DNA of 64,000 nucleotides, taken from positions 1,307,735 to 1,371,734 of the forward strand of contig NW_011887292.1 of the NCBI RefSeq assembly GCF_000151315.2. The letters run 5' to 3'. The stretch is from Capsaspora owczarzaki ATCC 30864 (Eukaryota > Opisthokonta > Filasterea). Below, piece by piece: positions 25,440 to 49,070 of the stretch; the stretch's first letter is position 1, and each line of letters begins with the position of its first letter. A program made the translations under genes and the position numbers. The notes beneath the pieces were generated by a model, which saw only the letters and a program-made list of their open reading frames with translations, was not told the origin of the DNA and did not search any database.

Positions 25440-27710
25440 TCAATGTTCAGCGCCAAAGAAGGTACGGGTGGTCTCACACTTGGGATTGGTGCACTTTGGG
25501 ACAACCGCATGCCAAGCTGCTTGCTGCAGGCCTTGCCGGTGGCTTCTGCTTGCTGGAGATGCTCGTGCACAATTGTAGCCATGGCTTTGATGAATAGGGG
25601 GTGGTTCGTTGAGGGATTCCGAGCGTTCGATTTGTTCGATTCCAACCTGCACAGATCCAAGTGAAGCAGAGAGCACACGGGTTAGAGGGGGCTCCAGTTG
25701 CAGAAAGAAGCAGAAGAACCAGAAAAGAGGAAAAAACAGACAAACAAACAAACAAACAAACAAACAAACAAACAAACAAACAAACAAACAAACAAACAAA
25801 CAAACAAACAAACAAACAAACAAACAAACAAACAAACAAACAAACAAACAAACAAACAAACAAACAAACAAACAAACAAACAAACAAACAAACAAACAAA
25901 CAAACAAACAAAAAACCCCGACGGCGGCGCGCCTCACCTCCTTTGCGAGAACGTCCGCATATTCATGATCCAACTCAAACAAGGTCTCGATGTGATCGGA
26001 AGTGAAGGCAATCGGAACCAAGAGGAGATTCTTGCGGCCATTGGCCGCAAAGCCGCGGATTGCCTCGTCGGTACGAGGGCCGAGCCAGTTCTGGGGACCA
26101 ACCTTGCTCTGCCACACAAGTTGGAACTGGTGGGAGTGGCCCAGTTCTTGCATGACGGCATGAACAGTGGCGGCCACTTGTGGAGGGTAAGCATCGCCAC
26201 GATTCACCACAGTCATTGGCAACGAGTGTGCGGAGAAGACCAAGACCACCTCCTTTCGCTTGGCTTCGGGGAAGCGCAGCAAGGCCTGGCGAATGTTGTG
26301 CACGACAGCCTAATGAGCAAGCACGGGGGAGGGCGGGGGGGGGAGTGGGAAGCTGTGAGTGTTGCCATTTCAGCAGATTTCTGATCGCTCAAAAACAAAA
26401 ACAAAACAAAAAACAACCACACAAGCAAAACAGCTTCTTACTTGGACAAACAGGGGATGCGTCGGCCAATGGTCAATCACAGACCATTGCATGTCTTTCA
26501 AGGGCGACGCCGAGCCGGCAGCAGAGATTTGGCGAGCGAGCTCGTTCAAGCTACTTCCCGTGGTCGAGCACGAGTACTGTGGATACTGGGTGAAGGCCAC
26601 CGCTCTTGTCACACCATCTGCGGCCATCTGCGCCAACGCGTCGTCCGTGAGGGGTCGCGCATACCGGAAGGCAATGTAAGGCTTGTGCGGTGCTGAATGG
26701 AGCCATCGGAACACACAGGAAAGGGCGCAACAACCGAAAAAAAAACAAACACTCAGCCACGCATACCATCAAATCATCCGAACAAAGAGCCAATACGGTT
26801 GCTTGTCTCTGACGCTTGCTTACCGGTGCTGGGAGAGATCTCGTCGAGCATCTTGGCCATGGCCTGCCCTTGCTTTTCAGTCCACGAACGAATGGGCGAC
26901 CCCCCGCCAATCTTGGCGTACTGCTGTTGGATGGTAGGTGTCCGTCGTCGTGCAATAAACCGTGCAGAATAGCTCTGCAGCGGCAGTGGAATAATGTCTC
27001 GGTCGGAGAACAGCCTGGCGATCGGATGGAACCATCAAAGGGGTCAGAGAATGCTCAAAGATGATACGGTGTCGATCTGCAAAACCATGACAAATTCAAC
27101 AAACCTCAAGAGAAAGTCGTGGACGTCTGCCTGTGTTGCGGGGCCGCCAAGATTCATCAGAACGATTGCAGTGGGCGGTTTGGTTGATCTGCAAAGAAAA
27201 AACAATGTTTCATCAAAGTGAATCGAGAGCAAACAACAATAGCTTGCTTGCTAGCTGCCCAGCCCAAGCACGATGCAGTACAGCACATCGCACATCGCAC
27301 AACGAAGCAGAAGCAAGAAGCGGGGGTTGAGAAAACTCCACTTCAGAGAGCGATCGCGCGCGAGGCGGTTGGGCACATCTGACCACGGACTTGACCCACG
27401 GGTAGACTTACACAGGAGTGACACGCAATCCATCAGTGGGAGCGGGAATGGCAGTGGCAGTGGTGGCCGATGGAGCAGGCGCAGAGTGCGAGGATCGTGA
27501 AACAGCAATCGCGCCGCTTTGGTGCTGCAGCAGCAACGGCTGTAGCGGCGACGATCGCGCGAGCTGCTGGGCAGCGCCCGAGAGTCCTGATTGCAACAAG
27601 CAACAACAGAGAAAGAGGCGCATGTTCGCCGTCAGTGTTTCAGCATTCACCGGCAGCAAAACAGGGGAAACAGACGGCCTCAAAGTACCAAATCGCAGGC
27701 GCGACAGCAT
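25440..27710 (-). CDS. FECH: Ferrochelatase (heme synthase), with a shifted segment in its last exon
   Basis: Exons (minus): 27710-27412, 27188-27105, 27014-26824, 26692-26442, 26309-25938, 25646-25440, 468 codons. The enzyme inserts Fe2+ into protoporphyrin IX at the mitochondrial inner membrane. The N-terminus [17 protein letters not shown] looks like a presequence. Motifs: [66 protein letters not shown] and [16 protein letters not shown] in family form. The last exon starts in frame ([13 protein letters not shown]). The family-like continuation ([24 protein letters not shown]) is then found in another frame, and the reading returns for [18 protein letters not shown]. The spliced frame stays open throughout, so about 35 residues differ from the family. 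One of the C-terminal [2Fe-2S] cysteines falls in that segment. This is either a sequence error or a genuine compensated change. Confidence 0.88.
25741..25911. repeat. (CAAA)n tetranucleotide array in last ferrochelatase intron
   Basis: About 43 perfect units. On the ferrochelatase coding strand it reads (TTTG)n and lies in the intron between exons 25938 and 25646, between donor and acceptor. Confidence 0.99.
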
Positions 27711-31400: not shown

Positions 31401-34400
31401 GTCCATCATTGGCACGCAGACAACCGTTCTGCAATACTTCCCGGCCGTCATCAAGGAGCTCATGACCGTGTACAAAATGCCCGAGCTTGCGCCGATGGTG
31501 GCTGGATTTATCGAGAGCATTCCCATGGACAAGGCCAAGTCCAAGCTCATTGTGCACAAGCTGCAGTTCATGAGTCAGCTGGTGCAAGGCGCCTTGTTCC
31601 AGTCGGCCGAAGGCCGCTTCTTGCTGCTGCCCACCGTCCTGAAGCATGTCAAGCTTCATCTGGAGAACCGCGAGGACTTGCCCATCTGCGTCGAACTCGT
31701 CTGCGCCGTGCTCTCAACCACCGGCCACCACAAGCTGCCGGAAGACATTGACGCTGCCATGTCGCTTTTGCGTCCGATTCTGAATGCCTGCTCTCGCACG
31801 CCTCCCAATGAGGCTGGCGCGGGCGAGATTGTCGCCTGTCTCCTGTCCATTCTGCACATGATGCCGGCCGAGCAGTTTGAGAGCTATCACGACACGATGG
31901 ATGAAGTCGAGCTTGCCGACTTTTTGAACGAAATGTTTGCCTGCTTCCTCGTGTTTACGACGGCCAACATTTACCCGCGCGACTGGGCTGTCATGGGTTT
32001 GCTGCAAAACTACGTCATCCTCAAGGCCATCGAGTTGCTGGCAGCCCGTGCGCTTGAAAACCACTTCCTTGTGGGCAACAAGTTCAAGCGCCAGCTCTGG
32101 AACGACTTTTTGCGTCTCAACCTGACCTTTATCACGCAGGACGTGCTCCAGCTCGAAAAGCTGCCCGAGACGCGCCGCAGCAAGATTCTGATCAAATACA
32201 GCGATATGCGCGTGCAGTCGGCCGTGGTCATGAAGGAGCTGTGGGACAAGCTCGGCCCGCTCAAAATCCAGTTTGTTCCTGCGTTGGTCGGTCCCCTGCT
32301 GGAGACGACCCTCATCCCGGTGCCCGAGCTGCGTGAAATTTCCCTGTTTATGCTGGCCGACATGGCGAAGGTTGAGTATGCCGCCCGCGGCGTCATTCGT
32401 CAGACCGAAAGCGAGACGATCGACCGTCTGGACGAGCTCGTTGGCGAGGGCAAGGGCGATGTCTCGTACATTGGCGACATTACCAACATGCTCACGCTGC
32501 ACCTGACCAAGCCGAACGCTGGCGATCCAGACACTGGGCGGCCCCCATTCAAGCCGGACGCAAAGCTGGCCGAGTACGGCGCGCAGTTTGCCTCCACCAT
32601 CCAGAGCCTGCTGGAACTTTTGCTGCGCTATCGCACGCTGGGCAATCACGACGAAAACCGCGACGAACGCGCGTCCGTCATGCACGACCTGCTCTTGTTC
32701 TTTGAAGGCATTCATCGCGAGGACAACTACTATCGCTACGTCGACCGCTTGCGTGACCTGCATGTGCAAAACAACAACTTTACCGAAGCAGGCTTTGCCC
32801 TCGGTCTATATGGAAACCACCTGCAGTGGAGCGACGTCAAGCTGCCCGCGCAGGGCAACGGCAAGTATCCTGCCCAGACAATGCGCGAGCGCAAGGCGGC
32901 CGTCTACAATGAAATCATTGGCTACTTTGACAAGGGCAAGGACTGGGAGGTTGCCATTCAACACTGCAAGATTCTGGCGGTGCAGCTGGAGACGGAGCTC
33001 TTTGACTACACCAAGATGAGTGAGATTCTGCAGCGCGAAGCTCGTTTCTTCAACCAGATTGTGTCTCAGCCGCGCTACCATTCCGAGTACTTCCGCGTCG
33101 GCTACTACGGCAAGGGTTTCCCCGTTGCGATTCGGGTAAGTTTGAAGTTGGTTTTTTGGGGAGGCAATGAGAGAGGATTGTGAGCTGGTTGGAGTGTTTT
33201 TTTTGTTTTTGTTTGTTTGTTTGTTTGTTTGTTTGTTTGTTTGTTTGTTTGTTTGTTTGTTTGTTTGTTTGTTTGTTTGTTTGTTTGTTTGTTTGTTTGT
33301 TTGTTTGTTTGTTTGTTTGTTTGTTTGTTTGTTTGTTTGTTTGTTTGTTTGTTTGTTTGTTTGTTTGTTTGTTTGTTTGTTTGTTTGTTTGTTCGTTTGT
33401 TTGTTTGTTTGTTTGTTTGTTTGTTTGTTTGTTTGTTTGTTTGTTTTTTTCTGACTGGTTTGTTTTTGTGACGATCTGCTCAACAACTCTAGAACCGCGA
33501 GTTTGTGTATCGCGGTGACGAGCTGGAACGCATTGCTGCGTTCGTGGAACGCATTCAGGCGCAGTATCCTGAAGCACAGATGGTCAAGAACAATGCTCCG
33601 GTGGACGAGAAGACTCAGAACGACGAGGGCCAGCACATTCAAATTGTCAAGGTCGATCCTACCCCGCCGCCCAAGGACTTCAAGGGTCGCAAAGTTGCAG
33701 AGGGTATCGAGAGGTACTATGCTCTCAACGATGTGAACACGTTCACGTTCGCACGGCCCTTCCGCAAGGGTGCCAAGAGTGGCAATGAATTTGCTGTACG
33801 TTGTTGTCGTCGTCGTCGTGTTTGATTGATATAATTTGGTACTTTCGTGACCGGGGGGAGAAAACCACACATAAACCTCACTTGGTCTGCGCCGGATCTT
33901 GACAGGATTTGTGGACGGAAAAGACAACGCTTGTCCTGGCCGCGTCTCTGCCGAACGTTCTGCGCCGTTCCCAAGTCATCGAATCAAAGCGGGTATGTTG
34001 CGGCTCCTCGATTGTTTGGATTGAGGTGAACTGCGGGGTTTTTGCTGTATCTCACAGTTTTTTTGTTTGTTTGTTTTGTTTGTTGCTGTGCCCACAACGA
34101 TTAGAGCGAGATCTCGCCCATCGAAAATGCGCTGGATGCAATGTCGAGCAAGAACAAGGAGCTCATCGCAATGGTTGAAAAGTACGAGGCCGGCCAGGGT
34201 GGCAACGTCAGCCCGTTCACGATGGCGCTCAACGGCATCATCGATGCCGCCGTCAACGGCGGTACCGAAATGTACAAGAAGGCCTTCTTTGTCAAGAGCT
34301 ACATTGCCAGCTATCCCGAGCACGCCGAGTTTGTGCGCCAGCTCAAAATCTCCCTGGATGAGCAGATGGACATTGTGCAGCGAGGCTTGACGCTGCATGC

Positions 34401-42426: not shown

Positions 42427-42693
42427 AAAACAAATCAAAAACAGGCACATCACATTGGTGATGATTGCGTTTCTTTTGTATTCCTCCCCCCCCCGTCTCT
42501 CGATTTGTGATTTGAAAATTCTCCTTGTTTTTTTGTTATTGCATCCATCGATCGTGTGCTGATGAGCTCATCTCCGGCTCTTGTAGCAGCGATCTCGATT
42601 GTGTTTATGAATTGATTGCTTCAATATGACGACTGTATACTTTTGAATACGTGGTTTGACCCAATCGTGCACTTCTAACTTGATGTGGACTGT

Positions 42694-42719
42694 ACACACA
42701 ATCGGCTGGACCCTCGAAG
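42694..42719 (+). repeat. Left arm of 26-bp inverted repeat flanking the Crinkler/RHS segment
   Basis: ACACACAATCGGCTGGACCC followed by TCGAAG. It matches the reverse complement of 46388-46413 at 25 of 26 positions. Partial similarity continues outward (a GGAC shortly before each arm). The arms are 3.7 kb apart and enclose two minus-strand genes. Confidence 0.75.
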
Positions 42720-42725
42720 AGGGTC
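42709..42725 (+). repeat. Short perfect hairpin overlapping the left inverted repeat
   Basis: GACCCTC-GAA-GAGGGTC, a 7-bp stem with 3-nt loop at the inner edge of the left arm. The right arm lacks the second half. Confidence 0.7.
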
Positions 42726-42961
42726 AGGTTACGCAGCGAGGTAATGGAAAGAAGAGTTGCGATTCTCGTCTTCAATCAAAATTACTGTGTAAGAGTATGC
42801 TTGACCCGAAGGGTCCAGACCCGTACCCTACGAGAGCCGATATCAACTTGATTGAAAGATACAGCGCATCGAGGGCTAGAGTATCGGAGATCTGTCCTTT
42901 ACAACTTGTGCTTGTATTTAGGTTTTGCTGACAGCCACGAAGCATGATCTCGTCCAACTTT

Positions 42962-45077
42962 TTACAACAGATCGATGTTAACGCACAGGGCAAATTGCTG
43001 AGCTGCGTCAACCTCAGCTGGCCGTGTTTCGAGCACACGGCCATCCACGCCAAGGTATGTCTGGCGCGGAAACGTCGGGTAAATGTCACTGGGCACCACA
43101 AAATAGAGCACCGCGGGACCCGCTTGTTGCGACATGCGAGAGATTGCCAGCCGCAAGCCTTCCGATTGGACTGGGTGCGATCGGCTGGCAGTCATCTGCA
43201 GAATGACATTCGGAGAAAGAATGGCGTCGACAGCTGCCAAATTGCGAATGGTCGGACTGTAGTAGCGGTCGGGGATGCTGAGATCAATCTCAGTCAGCTG
43301 ACGGAAATTGATGCAAGTGAGCCGCGGCAACTGCAACTCGTCACCGACGCCTGTTTCAAGATGACGTCTAGGGAATGTGCCACCTGTCTGAAGACAATTG
43401 GACGCGTACTCCTCAAAAAGCTGCCTACGCAGCAATGCGTGCTCTGGGCTGTCCTCCGCAGCGCTGAGAAAGCGCTTAAGTCGATCTTTCTCCGCGTTCC
43501 GGAACTTTCGAAAAACTCGCTCGCTGACCCATTTGGAGGCAAACCTCAGGCAGTAACGCGAATAGGGTAGAATACGCCTGCCGGACACATCAACAAGCCG
43601 GTTGGGATCAAGGGGCAGCACCTCGATATGGAGCACACGATGCAAGATGCTGTTCTCACTTGCCAGGTTTTCGACGTCAGTGTAGATGACCTTCTGAAAG
43701 ACGCATCCAGCAATGGCGTCCTGGAGATCTTGAACATCGCCAGCCTCTAATGGCAGTACCTCGCGCGCGATGCCACCCCAGCACAAAAACGCACTTCTGG
43801 CGGCCTGCAAGTATGCGTCGGCATCCTGTGGAACCATGCTTGTTGCAGACCGTTGCAAGTAAGCCTCGATCTCGAGTTCTGACCACACCGGCATCAACAG
43901 CAAGCGACCGTGCGCCTTTTGAAGGTCCCTGTAAATTGGGCGGAACGGGACTGTGACGAGCAGAACTTTAGCGGTGCCGTAGCCACTTGGGGAGTGGGCA
44001 TCTGTAATGAGCCAGACTGGTCCGTCGAGGAGAATGTCCATCGAGACCCGACAAGCAGACCCATCGGCACGCAAAAGATAGCGCGTCGTCTCCGGGAAGT
44101 TTCCCGCAGCCGGCTCATAGAAAAGCGGCAACGAAACATTGTTTTCCCTGTTCTGCCGAAAGATGCGGTACAAAAAGTACGCCGAGAAGGCTGTCTTGCC
44201 GATTCCAGGGTTGCCAGTGACAATCCATCGCTTCCAACGCGCGTTTTCTGCGTCGGTGATCACGTCGAAGAGTCCTTCGTAGCTCTCGCGAACCATGAGG
44301 ACTGAACCAAAATTAGGATCGCCCAGCCAGAACACGTTTGCAGGAAGAACTAGGAACAGTACGCTGACACTCTCAAGTTCGAGTCGCTGCTCGTTCACCT
44401 CGCCACGATGAAGCGCGCGCCAAAATCTGGCAAGCTCGTCGTCCACTACCAACCCGGGGTCACAATGTGAGCAAGCAGCGCTGCTCTCAGTCTCGAAACC
44501 TCCAAACAGAGAGAACAATACTCACACGGAAGCTCGCCTTGAAGGTGGATTCTAAGCTGCCGATTTTCTTCTGCAAGTGTTTGAAGTTGGATCCTAAGCC
44601 GCCGATTTTCTTCTTGAAGAGCTACAAGTGCTTGATGATCTGTCATTCGGACGGACAACAACCACGCGCAAACACATTGATAGTGAGGCTCCATGTGCAA
44701 GACCAAGAACTGGACAAGGCTGACATACCTGGTCGAGCAATTGCCGTGGCAAGCAAAAGTTGAGCTTTGGTGGCCGTCATAGTGTTGATCATTGTACGCA
44801 CACTCTGCGCAGAACTCGCATAAAGCTGTGCCTCTGCGATATTTCCTGCGTCGTGTGCAGTCGCTTCAAGGCGCTCGTAGTGGCGCAGACGGTCTTGGCT
44901 GTCCGCCAGTGTTGTGTTCAATCCGGCGATCTCGGCCTCCAGCCTTTCTCGCCCGACCGCGGCCGGCGGCAGTTGCTCCAAGCGAGGGTGCTGGACTTCG
45001 CTCGGAGAACGGTCTGCAGCTGTGGGCGAGAGCGGTCGCCGAACAGAAAACTCTTGGCGGTCTTGGCTGTACGACAT
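42962..45077 (-). CDS. Crinkler/RHS-type P-loop NTPase protein (CR superfamily)
   Basis: Proposed exons (minus): 45077-44729, 44639-44528, 44483-42962, 661 codons. The N-terminal ~150 residues are charged and coiled-coil-like (QLTAEENRQLRIHLQ-type heptads in exon 2). The main exon carries a Walker A motif, TGNPGIGKTAFSAYFLYRIF (about residue 242), and a Walker B-like VWLITDAH, in the arrangement of Crinkler (CRN) and trypanosomatid RHS proteins. The C-terminal segment PDRYYSPTIRNLAAVDAIL, VILQMTASRSHPV and AVLYFVVPSDIYPTF follows the nuclease-like tail seen in CRN-RHS proteins (a paiD, QmT, Hp, FvVP pattern). These families occur as pathogen effectors and in free-living protists, with a proposed role in DNA manipulation or conflict. 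The junction of exons 2 and 3 is uncertain. The segment is flanked by inverted repeats and neighbours an unknown gene. Confidence 0.72.
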
Positions 45078-45499
45078 TCGACAAGAAAGGAAAACAACCA
45101 AAACCGAAGACTGTTCATCCTAGTTCGGGCTTTGCATTTTGAACAAGCCACGCACTGTTTTCTCAGCACGGAAACCTTTCACGAGATACAAACAACGCAG
45201 GAGAATTGGGCGTTGCGTGACAAACTACGCATCAAAAGTTGCCAAGTGACGTGAACGAGCTCAAACCCCTTTCACCCATCCCCGCTCACTTTTAGACCCA
45301 TTCCCGACCTCCTTCTTCTGCATTGCCCTTGTTCTAGTATGTCCGAATTAATCTTTAGTCTCAATAGGAACCGTTGCAGGACCTCTTCAACATCAACACC
45401 AAGTTCCAAGGCTTCAAAAAATAAGTGAAATTACGACGGCCTATTGAGACTAAAAATTCATGAGAGCACACTGGAGCAAGGAGGAGGTTGGGAAAAGGT
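45078..45499. other. Gap between the two genes of the accessory segment, with a 14-bp inverted repeat
   Basis: 422 bp. It contains a perfect inverted repeat (45355-45368 and 45440-45453) just beyond the stop of the upstream 224-residue gene. The reading between the arms is short and I do not call a gene. Confidence 0.5.
45355..45453. repeat. Inverted repeat, 14-bp arms, 71-bp spacer
   Basis: TTAGTCTCAATAGG at 45355-45368 and its exact reverse complement CCTATTGAGACTAA at 45440-45453. It could be a transcript 3'-end hairpin or the remains of a small inverted-repeat element. Confidence 0.8.
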
Positions 45500-46281
45500 C
45501 TAAAAGTGCTTGATCGCGGGACTTTTGGAAGCTTGAACTCGAAGCTTGTCCAGAACCGCAGCCCCATGCTGCAAAAGCTGCGGAGAGATGAAACTGAGCA
45601 GCTGGTTGACAGTGTTGGTTCGATTCTGCTTGGGAATGATGAGTTGTTCGGACTTGCTCGGCAGCCGAACGAGCGAAGCACCAACCTCCCCACTGGCCTC
45701 GAACTCGACAATCGCTCCAATGCTTGGCCAATGCATCGCAATGCCTCCATCTTCGTGATAGATGTCCGGGTGGCACTCTGGTTTCGAGTACAAGCTCTGA
45801 AGATCGTCGTAGCTGTAAAAACCAACGACAAACGACCAAGCATCCACCTGCACAGTGTCTGAGACGTGCGGTGCGCAATGATCCATCTCAGTTGTGATGC
45901 GGTCTGGAGCATGGTTGAAATGAGACCTTTTCCAATTGGGAATTGAAGCCTCTAGGTTGAGCTGGTTTTCTTCTGCAGTTCGCTCGTCGGCTTGACAAGC
46001 GGAGACCTTTTCTTGTTCGGGCGGGCGTTCGGCAAGCTTCCAGGCCGACATCAGCTCGTTAATGGTTTGGACAACGAGATCACGGTCCCTGCGACTCAAG
46101 TAGCGGGAGGTTGGGGCTTTCAAAAGCCCGATGCTGACTATAGGCATTCAAACGACCAAAAAAAGAAAAGAAAAAGGTTTCTCGGTGAGTGTCTCCAAAG
46201 CTCGGTGAGTATGCGTCCATCGCTGCGCTCAGTGCATCGCTCACAAATCGCTTGCTCGCGGAGTTTGTCGGCGCCAGACAT
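45500..46281 (-). CDS. Uncharacterised 224-residue protein within the inverted-repeat-flanked segment
   Basis: Exons (minus): 46281-46245 and 46137-45500, 225 codons, joined by a GTGAGC donor and a pyrimidine-rich acceptor ending CTATAG; frame is kept. I do not recognise the family. The protein begins MSGADKLREQAIFSIGLLKA. It has a mixed alpha/beta core with aromatic-rich stretches (DAWSFVVGFYSYDDLQSLY, then EDGGIAMHWPSIGAIVEFEA), a helical stretch NQLLSFISPQLLQHGA and a basic tail. No signal peptide, membrane segment or zinc motif is visible. It is transcribed in the same direction as the Crinkler/RHS-type gene 422 bp downstream, and both lie between the inverted repeats, so they may have arrived together. 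Confidence 0.6.
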
Positions 46282-46617
46282 GGAAGTTGATGGAAAAAGC
46301 GAAGAGACGTCAATAATCAAAAAAGAAAACTAGATAAAGAGTGTGGCTCTACCCCGACAATCCCTGCACACACAACGGGCGTCCCACCTTCGAGGGTCAA
46401 GCCGATTGTGTGTGTCCGGATCATCTTCACACTGCTTTTGCACTGATTTTGGCACCCCCCCTGGTAAAAAAAGGATTGTTGAATTTGTTTGAAGATTGTG
46501 TGATCAGTCTACAGTGCAGTCAGGCTAGAGCACTCTTTCCTATTTCAAGCTTGTACAGTATTGTGCAATGAGTAGTGTGCGCAGTCTCTTATTATTTGAT
46601 TGTATCACTTGTTAAGA
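46282..46617. other. Intergenic region with right inverted-repeat arm
   Basis: 336 bp between the start of the unknown gene (minus) and the start of the oxysterol-binding gene (plus), so it also serves as a divergent promoter region. It contains the right arm 46388-46413 and is otherwise AT-rich without a recognised gene. Confidence 0.6.
46388..46413 (-). repeat. Right arm of 26-bp inverted repeat flanking the Crinkler/RHS segment
   Basis: The reverse complement reads ACACACAATCGGCTTGACCC then TCGAAG, one mismatch from the left arm at 42694-42719. No clear target-site duplication was found outside the arms. Confidence 0.75.

Positions 46618-49070
<2,453 letters not shown>

Follow-up and report, generated by a model that had tools for sequence, protein, structure and literature searches.

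A predicted P-loop NTPase gene between MITE ends in Capsaspora owczarzaki: a candidate gene-carrying composite transposon

Genes and repeats at the locus

A stretch of 64,000 bp (the window) was analysed in the genome of Capsaspora owczarzaki ATCC 30864, a unicellular eukaryote and close relative of animals. It corresponds to C1:1307735-1371734 in an assembly of 27,456,641 bases and 29 contigs (here denoted by C and a number), the single genome analysed. The subject is a candidate mobile unit at positions 42674-46529 of the window, in which a predicted P-loop NTPase gene lies between the ends, termed R and L, of a dispersed miniature inverted-repeat transposable element (MITE). An orphan open reading frame (ORF) lies in the same unit. 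The features are, in window coordinates:

42669-42673, no strand: left target-site duplication GCACT, identical to 46530-46534
42674-42723, plus strand: putative left terminus, a MITE R end with a flipped central hairpin; includes the left arm (42694-42719)
42962-45077, minus strand: predicted P-loop NTPase gene, 647 aa; exons 45077-44729, 44639-44526 and 44445-42962
45287-45508, no strand: imperfect 222-bp foldback 5' of the NTPase gene; common, in whole or in part, to the paralogous loci C4:2028079 and C15:115470
45500-46147, minus strand: orphan ORF, 215 aa; single copy, coding status uncertain
46348-46529, minus strand: putative right terminus, a complete MITE copy (profile positions 1-182, E 1.1e-43) whose outer end, 46529, is the L end; includes the right arm (46388-46413)
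46530-46534, no strand: right target-site duplication GCACT, identical to 42669-42673

The three exons of the NTPase gene were inferred from the reading frame and GT-AG sites. The predicted protein has a coiled-coil-like N-terminus, a Walker A motif GNPGIGKT (encoded at about 44192-44215) and the residues D...QMT near the C-terminus (about 43190-43228). Both genes are on the minus strand, as an earlier prediction from the sequence had stated; the length of 224 residues given there for the orphan was not reproduced, the ATG-initiated ORF encoding 215 aa.

The original prediction also described two inverted 26-bp arms at 42694-42719 and 46388-46413, which are indeed complementary at 25 of 26 positions. 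A 24-base pattern derived from them, with up to three mismatches allowed, matched only the two arms within the window and gave no match in 100 shuffles. Copies of the arm were found elsewhere: a 20-base core, again with up to three mismatches, had 28 matches in the genome and none with the reversed pattern as control. Extension of these matches placed the arms within a dispersed repeat of about 190 bp, a MITE family. The arms had been taken as the termini of the element, a reading that was rejected because they are internal to the longer repeat, lying 20 bp and 116 bp inside the inferred ends, and because matching 5-mers flank that repeat on the outside. These 5-mers, GCACT on either side, also correct the earlier remark that no target-site duplication was seen.

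The MITE family and the ends of the window unit

The inverted ends of the MITE family read TCTASCCCGACTTG. Read inward, the L end is TCTAGCCCGACTTGCACTGTTTGACTGATC and the R end is TCTACCCCGACGTGGACTGCACACACAA, with a hairpin in the centre of the element. A 211-bp query returned 44 match rows (40 scored), equivalent to 41 genomic places after rows within 300 bp were merged and the left arm was added; the repeat counts are lower bounds. Complete short copies measure 133-207 bp and have short inverted ends and the central hairpin. Among 16 complete short copies at the loci examined, all outside the NTPase-gene loci, six had an exact 5-bp target duplication. The 14-mer MITE end had 91 matches in the genome (42 for the control), and pairing of these within 15 kb yielded 15 short and six long pairs, the latter comprising three on C3 and one each on C4, C12 and C1 (13 kb).

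The window unit is 3,856 bp long and has GCACT on either side. Equal 5-mers at this spacing occurred in just 316 of 200,000 random draws from the window (0.16%). For the termini, a MITE profile was built from 15 copies, the gene-side copies of the window and of two loci on C3 and C4 being left out. Its terminal position (182) falls exactly at 42674, with an E-value of only 0.0052. The left R end, TCTAACTTGATGTGGACTGTACACACAA at 42674-42701, agrees with the family R end at 23 of 28 positions, and in an R-end scan of the window the copy at 46348 alone scored as high, the next best score being 18.

The profile also matched the flipped hairpin at 42693-42723 (E 1.8e-6), and the 30 bp at 42694-42723 are identical in six other genomic copies. 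The left arm had resembled an isolated fragment because the hairpin that follows the R end is flipped. An interpretation of the left arm as a random 30-bp fragment, and of the gene as part of a plain segmental duplication of 42862-45508, was dropped once the hairpin was seen to be flipped and the R end had been identified. The duplicated block itself is real and is common, in whole or in part, to four paralogs, where no MITE ends were seen.

Units with the same ends and their possible origin

The genome contains 15 recognisable genes of the NTPase family, the window gene included. All these loci were searched for an R and an L end with equal adjacent 5-mers. For 12 of the genes the search covered about 1.5 kb to either side of the matched exon, and for those of the window, C3 and C4 it covered more. 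The window pair scored 34 and the C3 and C4 pairs 53 each; the best score at the other 12 loci was 28, a value also reached by chance pairs in the window locus.

The C3 unit (C3:970465-974328) matches the R end at 27 and the L end at 26 of 28 positions, and its duplication is GGTTT. For the C4 unit (C4:1763636-1771850) the corresponding values are 28 and 25 of 28, with the duplication AAACC in gene orientation (GGTTT on the contig). In the window, C3 and C4 units alike, the distance from the R end inward to the stop codon of the gene is 259-288 bp, and the polarity is constant. The C3 and C4 sequences are 90% identical over 2,324 columns. In both, the similarity ends with the outermost R-end base, and the 35 bases compared beyond it are different DNA. 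Other pairings of ends, ten at C3 and one at C4, had flanks that did not match. Nested in the C4 unit is a Mutator-like element (MULE; L060, C4:1763960-1769103) of 5,144 bp, with ends of its own, a 9-bp duplication AAGGTGAAA and a MULE transposase domain (E 7.6e-12); minus this element and one copy of its duplication, the unit measures 3,062 bp.

A fourth unit, on C12 (C12:169163-171110; L062, L024), spans 1,948 bp between copies of CCGCT and lacks an NTPase gene. It contains an ORF for a coiled-coil-like protein of 258 aa, and 105 bp are 87% identical to the 5' region of the C3 gene.

All four units pair an R end with an L end, and at least one terminus of each is a complete MITE. The terminal copies of the C3 unit are in direct orientation (970465 and 974140-974328, both on the minus strand), and in the window, C4 and C12 units one terminal copy is partial. 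Searches of selected ORFs from the window, C3 and C12 units found no transposase family above cut-off, no genome-wide search for transposases having been made; the coiled-coil exon gave a weak match to HTH_Tnp_1 (E 0.62).

These results suggest, with a probability that we put at about 0.6, that window 42674-46529 is a gene-carrying composite (Pack-type) non-autonomous DNA transposon with MITE R and L ends. The NTPase genes appear to travel with transposon ends, as a cargo that is found repeatedly in these units. Insertion of the whole unit predicts an empty site, TTTGACCCAATCGTGCACTCTTTCC / CAATCGTGCACTCTTTCC, carrying one GCACT.

The gene could have been enclosed between MITE copies by composite transposition, in which a transposase uses the outermost ends of two MITEs that lie close together. 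Alternatively, in Pack-type capture, a break at the central hairpin of a MITE may have been repaired with a gene-bearing locus as the template that was copied in, and the flipped hairpins seen at the inner junctions of the window and C12 units would fit breaks at that place. The whole unit would behave as one large MITE, mobilised in trans by a separate transposase. A paralogous locus on C17 (L053) has no MITE where C4 has one beside the gene, which suggests that the MITE was added next to a pre-existing gene.

Pack-MULE and Pack-CACTA elements are Pack-type, gene-capturing non-autonomous transposons. The present units resemble them in having a target duplication, and coding sequence with inferred introns between the ends, but no transposase that could be recognised in the ORFs scanned; they differ from them in that one small gene family occupies three of the four units and a complete MITE is kept at one end of each. 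The short copies, with their inverted ends, hairpin and 5-bp duplications, are like other MITEs, whereas the four units with the same ends extend over 1.9-8.2 kb and hold DNA between the ends, in three cases with a gene of one family. In the KolobokP composite-like transposons, as described in the available part of PMC9587614, an inner region also lies between copies of a short element with inverted ends of its own, in direct orientation as in C3, and solo copies are likewise abundant. The 5-bp duplications and the often partial terminal copies distinguish the units described here, and the internal DDD/E transposase of KolobokP was not seen in the ORFs scanned.

Several findings weigh against the composite, Pack-type interpretation. 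Twelve of the 15 NTPase genes have no such ends within the flank of about 1.5 kb, where gapped profile matches had E-values of 0.7 or worse. The family therefore also spreads by other means; more distant ends could be missed, since the L end of the C4 unit lies at a distance of about 6.5 kb. Between the 5' side of the gene and the L end, the C3 and C4 units are not alike, so that neither arose by a simple intact jump of the other. An exact duplication is absent from ten of the 16 complete short MITE copies, two of these copies forming termini of the longer pairs on C11 and C12. At C11:218689-223352 a MITE pair encloses a host ORF whose translation resembles a receptor kinase, and the adjacent 5-mers differ (AAAAA/TAAAA); TAAAA recurs one base off in A-rich DNA, which makes this neither a clear unit nor a clear non-unit. 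In the window, the left end is decayed (23 of 28; E 0.0052) and would be weak without the duplication and the adjoining hairpin, while the right L end agrees with the L consensus at only 11 of 28 positions when ungapped, although the gapped profile match is strong. Finally, chromoviral LTR (long terminal repeat) retrotransposons of Capsaspora also make 5-bp duplications, according to the part of PMC4007536 available, so that the length of the duplication alone does not identify the enzyme.

Two unrelated MITE insertions (42674 and 46348-46529) may instead flank the gene by chance, in which case the unit as a whole has never moved, and the 5-mers are identical by coincidence. MITE places do cluster near the NTPase genes: of the 41, six are no more than 2 kb from one of the 15 family members (three of the six on C3 alone), compared with 0.107 expected. 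This figure is inflated, since the query was taken from the window locus, which itself contributes two of the six, and since a copy is shared by C3 and C4 through descent. The decayed left end would agree with such an origin, and at C11 a host gene may be enclosed by two MITEs that lack an exact duplication. However, equal 5-mers were rare in the random draws, and three more long units (C3, C4 and C12) have exact flanks, with R and L ends in all four, so that we regard chance flanking as improbable.

The original prediction of a mobile unit stands in so far as the gene does lie between the inverted ends of an element that is dispersed in the genome, and the unit has a 5-bp duplication. In its first form it made the 26-bp arms the termini of a mobile conflict module of two genes, in which the orphan was the functional partner of the NTPase gene; this we consider very improbable. 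The arms are real, and an inverted arm pair was found around a relative of the NTPase gene at one second locus, C3. That pair is the opposite way round, however, with unmatched outer flanks (GGTTT/GTTAT), and the internal position of the window arms already contradicts the strict form. The orphan has no Pfam match, no second copy in the genome and no convincing match in the compared C3, C4 and C12 stretches (best E 0.91). In the C3 unit a different ORF is present; its first 58 residues, derived from the MITE, are the only part that recurs. Judging from these sequence comparisons, we see in the orphan no conserved partner of the NTPase gene.

A generic scan for any 16-mer ends with a 5-bp duplication was uninformative: its matches, at six of the other 12 loci, reached only 12-13 of 16, and with the settings used it missed the window and C3 units as well. 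A second copy of the L-end side of the C12 unit, 80% similar over 798 columns, is present at C1:3393794-3394549 (L034). A further MITE piece lies about 3 kb outside the C3 unit, at C3:967476-967580 (L008 976-1080; profile 2-88, E 2.6e-8), and C3 has four MITE pieces within 7 kb.

The NTPase gene family

The window protein is only 43% identical to the C3 and C4 proteins. The motif GNPGxGKT and an aspartate at the Walker B place are invariant in all ten aligned proteins, as are E349, D411 and QMT at 421-423. Pfam gave matches below cut-off only, chiefly to P-loop families including nSTAND3 (best E 5.1e-4). The AlphaFold model is poor (pLDDT 51.7), and a fold search with it against the PDB gave no match at E <= 0.001; the best 50 of 618 matches were mostly AAA+ and STAND proteins (clamp loaders, ORC, RuvB, NLRs) and included a phage large terminase at E 0.05.

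The gene had been labelled as belonging to the Crinkler-RHS-type (CR) superfamily. The P-loop NTPase part of this label is supported, and no RHS or Crinkler profile matched above cut-off. Weak similarity to Trypano_RHS (TIGR01631) was detected in three of ten proteins, in the Walker A region only (E 0.02-0.31), the best score being 13.1 bits against a cut-off of 89.75. Neither a Crinkler nor an RHSP family was among the Pfam matches of the NTPase proteins, and a genome search with PF07999 gave no match, the control genomes being silent as well. Crinkler/RHS membership is therefore plausible but not established. From its architecture only, the product might be an ATP-regulated conflict protein, in which an NTPase switch is joined to a possible nuclease tail. 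Scans of viral contigs and prokaryotic genomes, each with two short peptide patterns, confirmed no relatives.

Among close copies of the genes, the ratio of nonsynonymous to synonymous substitution rates (dN/dS) was 0.99, 1.12 and 1.28 within the window group; three other pairs gave 0.50-0.72, and two deeper ones 0.29 and 0.44. Values near or above 1 could reflect relaxed or diversifying selection in the window group. This consists of three close copies (the window gene, L043 and L044) whose exon-3 frames are intact.

The apparent nuclease motif of the family is D...QxT, without the usual lysine. This bears on the possibility that an undescribed DNA transposon uses the NTPase protein as its transposase, or as an indispensable part of that enzyme; the units would in that case be autonomous or formerly so, with the MITEs as their deletion derivatives. 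The NTPase gene is the only one that recurs among the long pairs (window, C3, C4, C12 and C11), and it keeps the same polarity and, where present, a similar distance from the R end despite the low identity of the window protein to those of C3 and C4. Close to the gene on its 5' side, C4 (profile 6-50, E 2.2e-7) and C3 (6-51, E 1.5e-5) have sequence resembling an L end, which would give a compact one-gene element of 2.4 kb. Prokaryotic NTPase-REase pairs are linked with transposable elements in the available part of PMC5289972, and the 14 DNA-transposon families of Capsaspora described in that of PMC4007536 have TA, 3-bp or 9-bp duplications, none of 5 bp.

Against a transposase role stand the 12 of 15 genes without ends in the scanned flank, the unmatched flanks (GGTTT/AAGTG) of the compact C3 candidate at 970465-972855, and the C17 paralog without the MITE that adjoins the C4 gene. 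At least one terminus of each unit is, moreover, a complete MITE and not a bare end, the nuclease motif is atypical, and two gene copies carry the same interruption, so that an already broken gene was still copied. A transposase role is hence unlikely, though it is the strongest of the competing explanations. A slightly more doubtful extension of it would make the NTPase protein the transposase of an undescribed eukaryotic superfamily with 5-bp duplications, and an extant relative of the mobile NTPase-nuclease genes proposed as ancestors of Crinkler/RHS effectors.

The two interrupted copies are L045/L047 (C4:2029100-2030583) and L046/L048 (C15:216027-217498). Their interruption is at one common place, from which it seems that an already broken gene was duplicated. 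A 32-nt inverted repeat (22 nt perfect) surrounds the C4:2029100 paralog (L045 441-472 and 3238-3269). It was not used as a pair of transposon ends: the exact 22-mer pair occurs at this one locus only, with two weaker single matches elsewhere, and its flanks do not match. Four paralogous NTPase genes, two on each strand and one with an internal stop, are clustered at C17:122942-136365, with no MITE ends in the scanned flanks.

Helitrons are not known to have inverted ends or a target duplication, whereas both are present in the units described here. The CRN genes of Phytophthora infestans are Helitron-associated (PMC5289972, available part, citing Haas et al. 2009) and are comparable to the present genes as a family associated with mobile elements. 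The same part of PMC5289972 presents Crinkler/RHS-type genes as derived from mobile DNA and travelling with it, a proposal based on domain relationships and on clustering near repeats; enclosure by DNA-transposon ends is not mentioned in that part. The Capsaspora family shares with the CR superfamily described there a P-loop NTPase, a conserved C-terminal region that might be a nuclease, a multigene organisation and a proposed link to mobile DNA, and differs in the lack of a Crinkler/RHS profile match above cut-off. In Capsaspora, matching transposon ends with target-site duplications physically surround predicted NTPase genes, possibly of Crinkler/RHS type, at three loci. Defined DNA ends and a defined protein are thereby available for joint tests, and the units present a concrete route by which such a gene family could spread and diversify in a unicellular eukaryote.

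The orphan ORF had its best codon score in its own frame, near that of the NTPase gene, yet the score is weak, the training set consisting of two genes. Its AlphaFold model has a mean pLDDT of 34.8 and no confident fold. The 222-bp foldback 5' of the NTPase gene is possibly a second MITE family or a promoter foldback, and weak extra matches to it were found at C5:879097 and C6:361621. Elsewhere in the window there are three long microsatellites with 97-100% matches: AAAC at 25734-25916 (46 units), TTTG at 33208-33450 (61 units) and TG at 48046-48182 (68.5 units).

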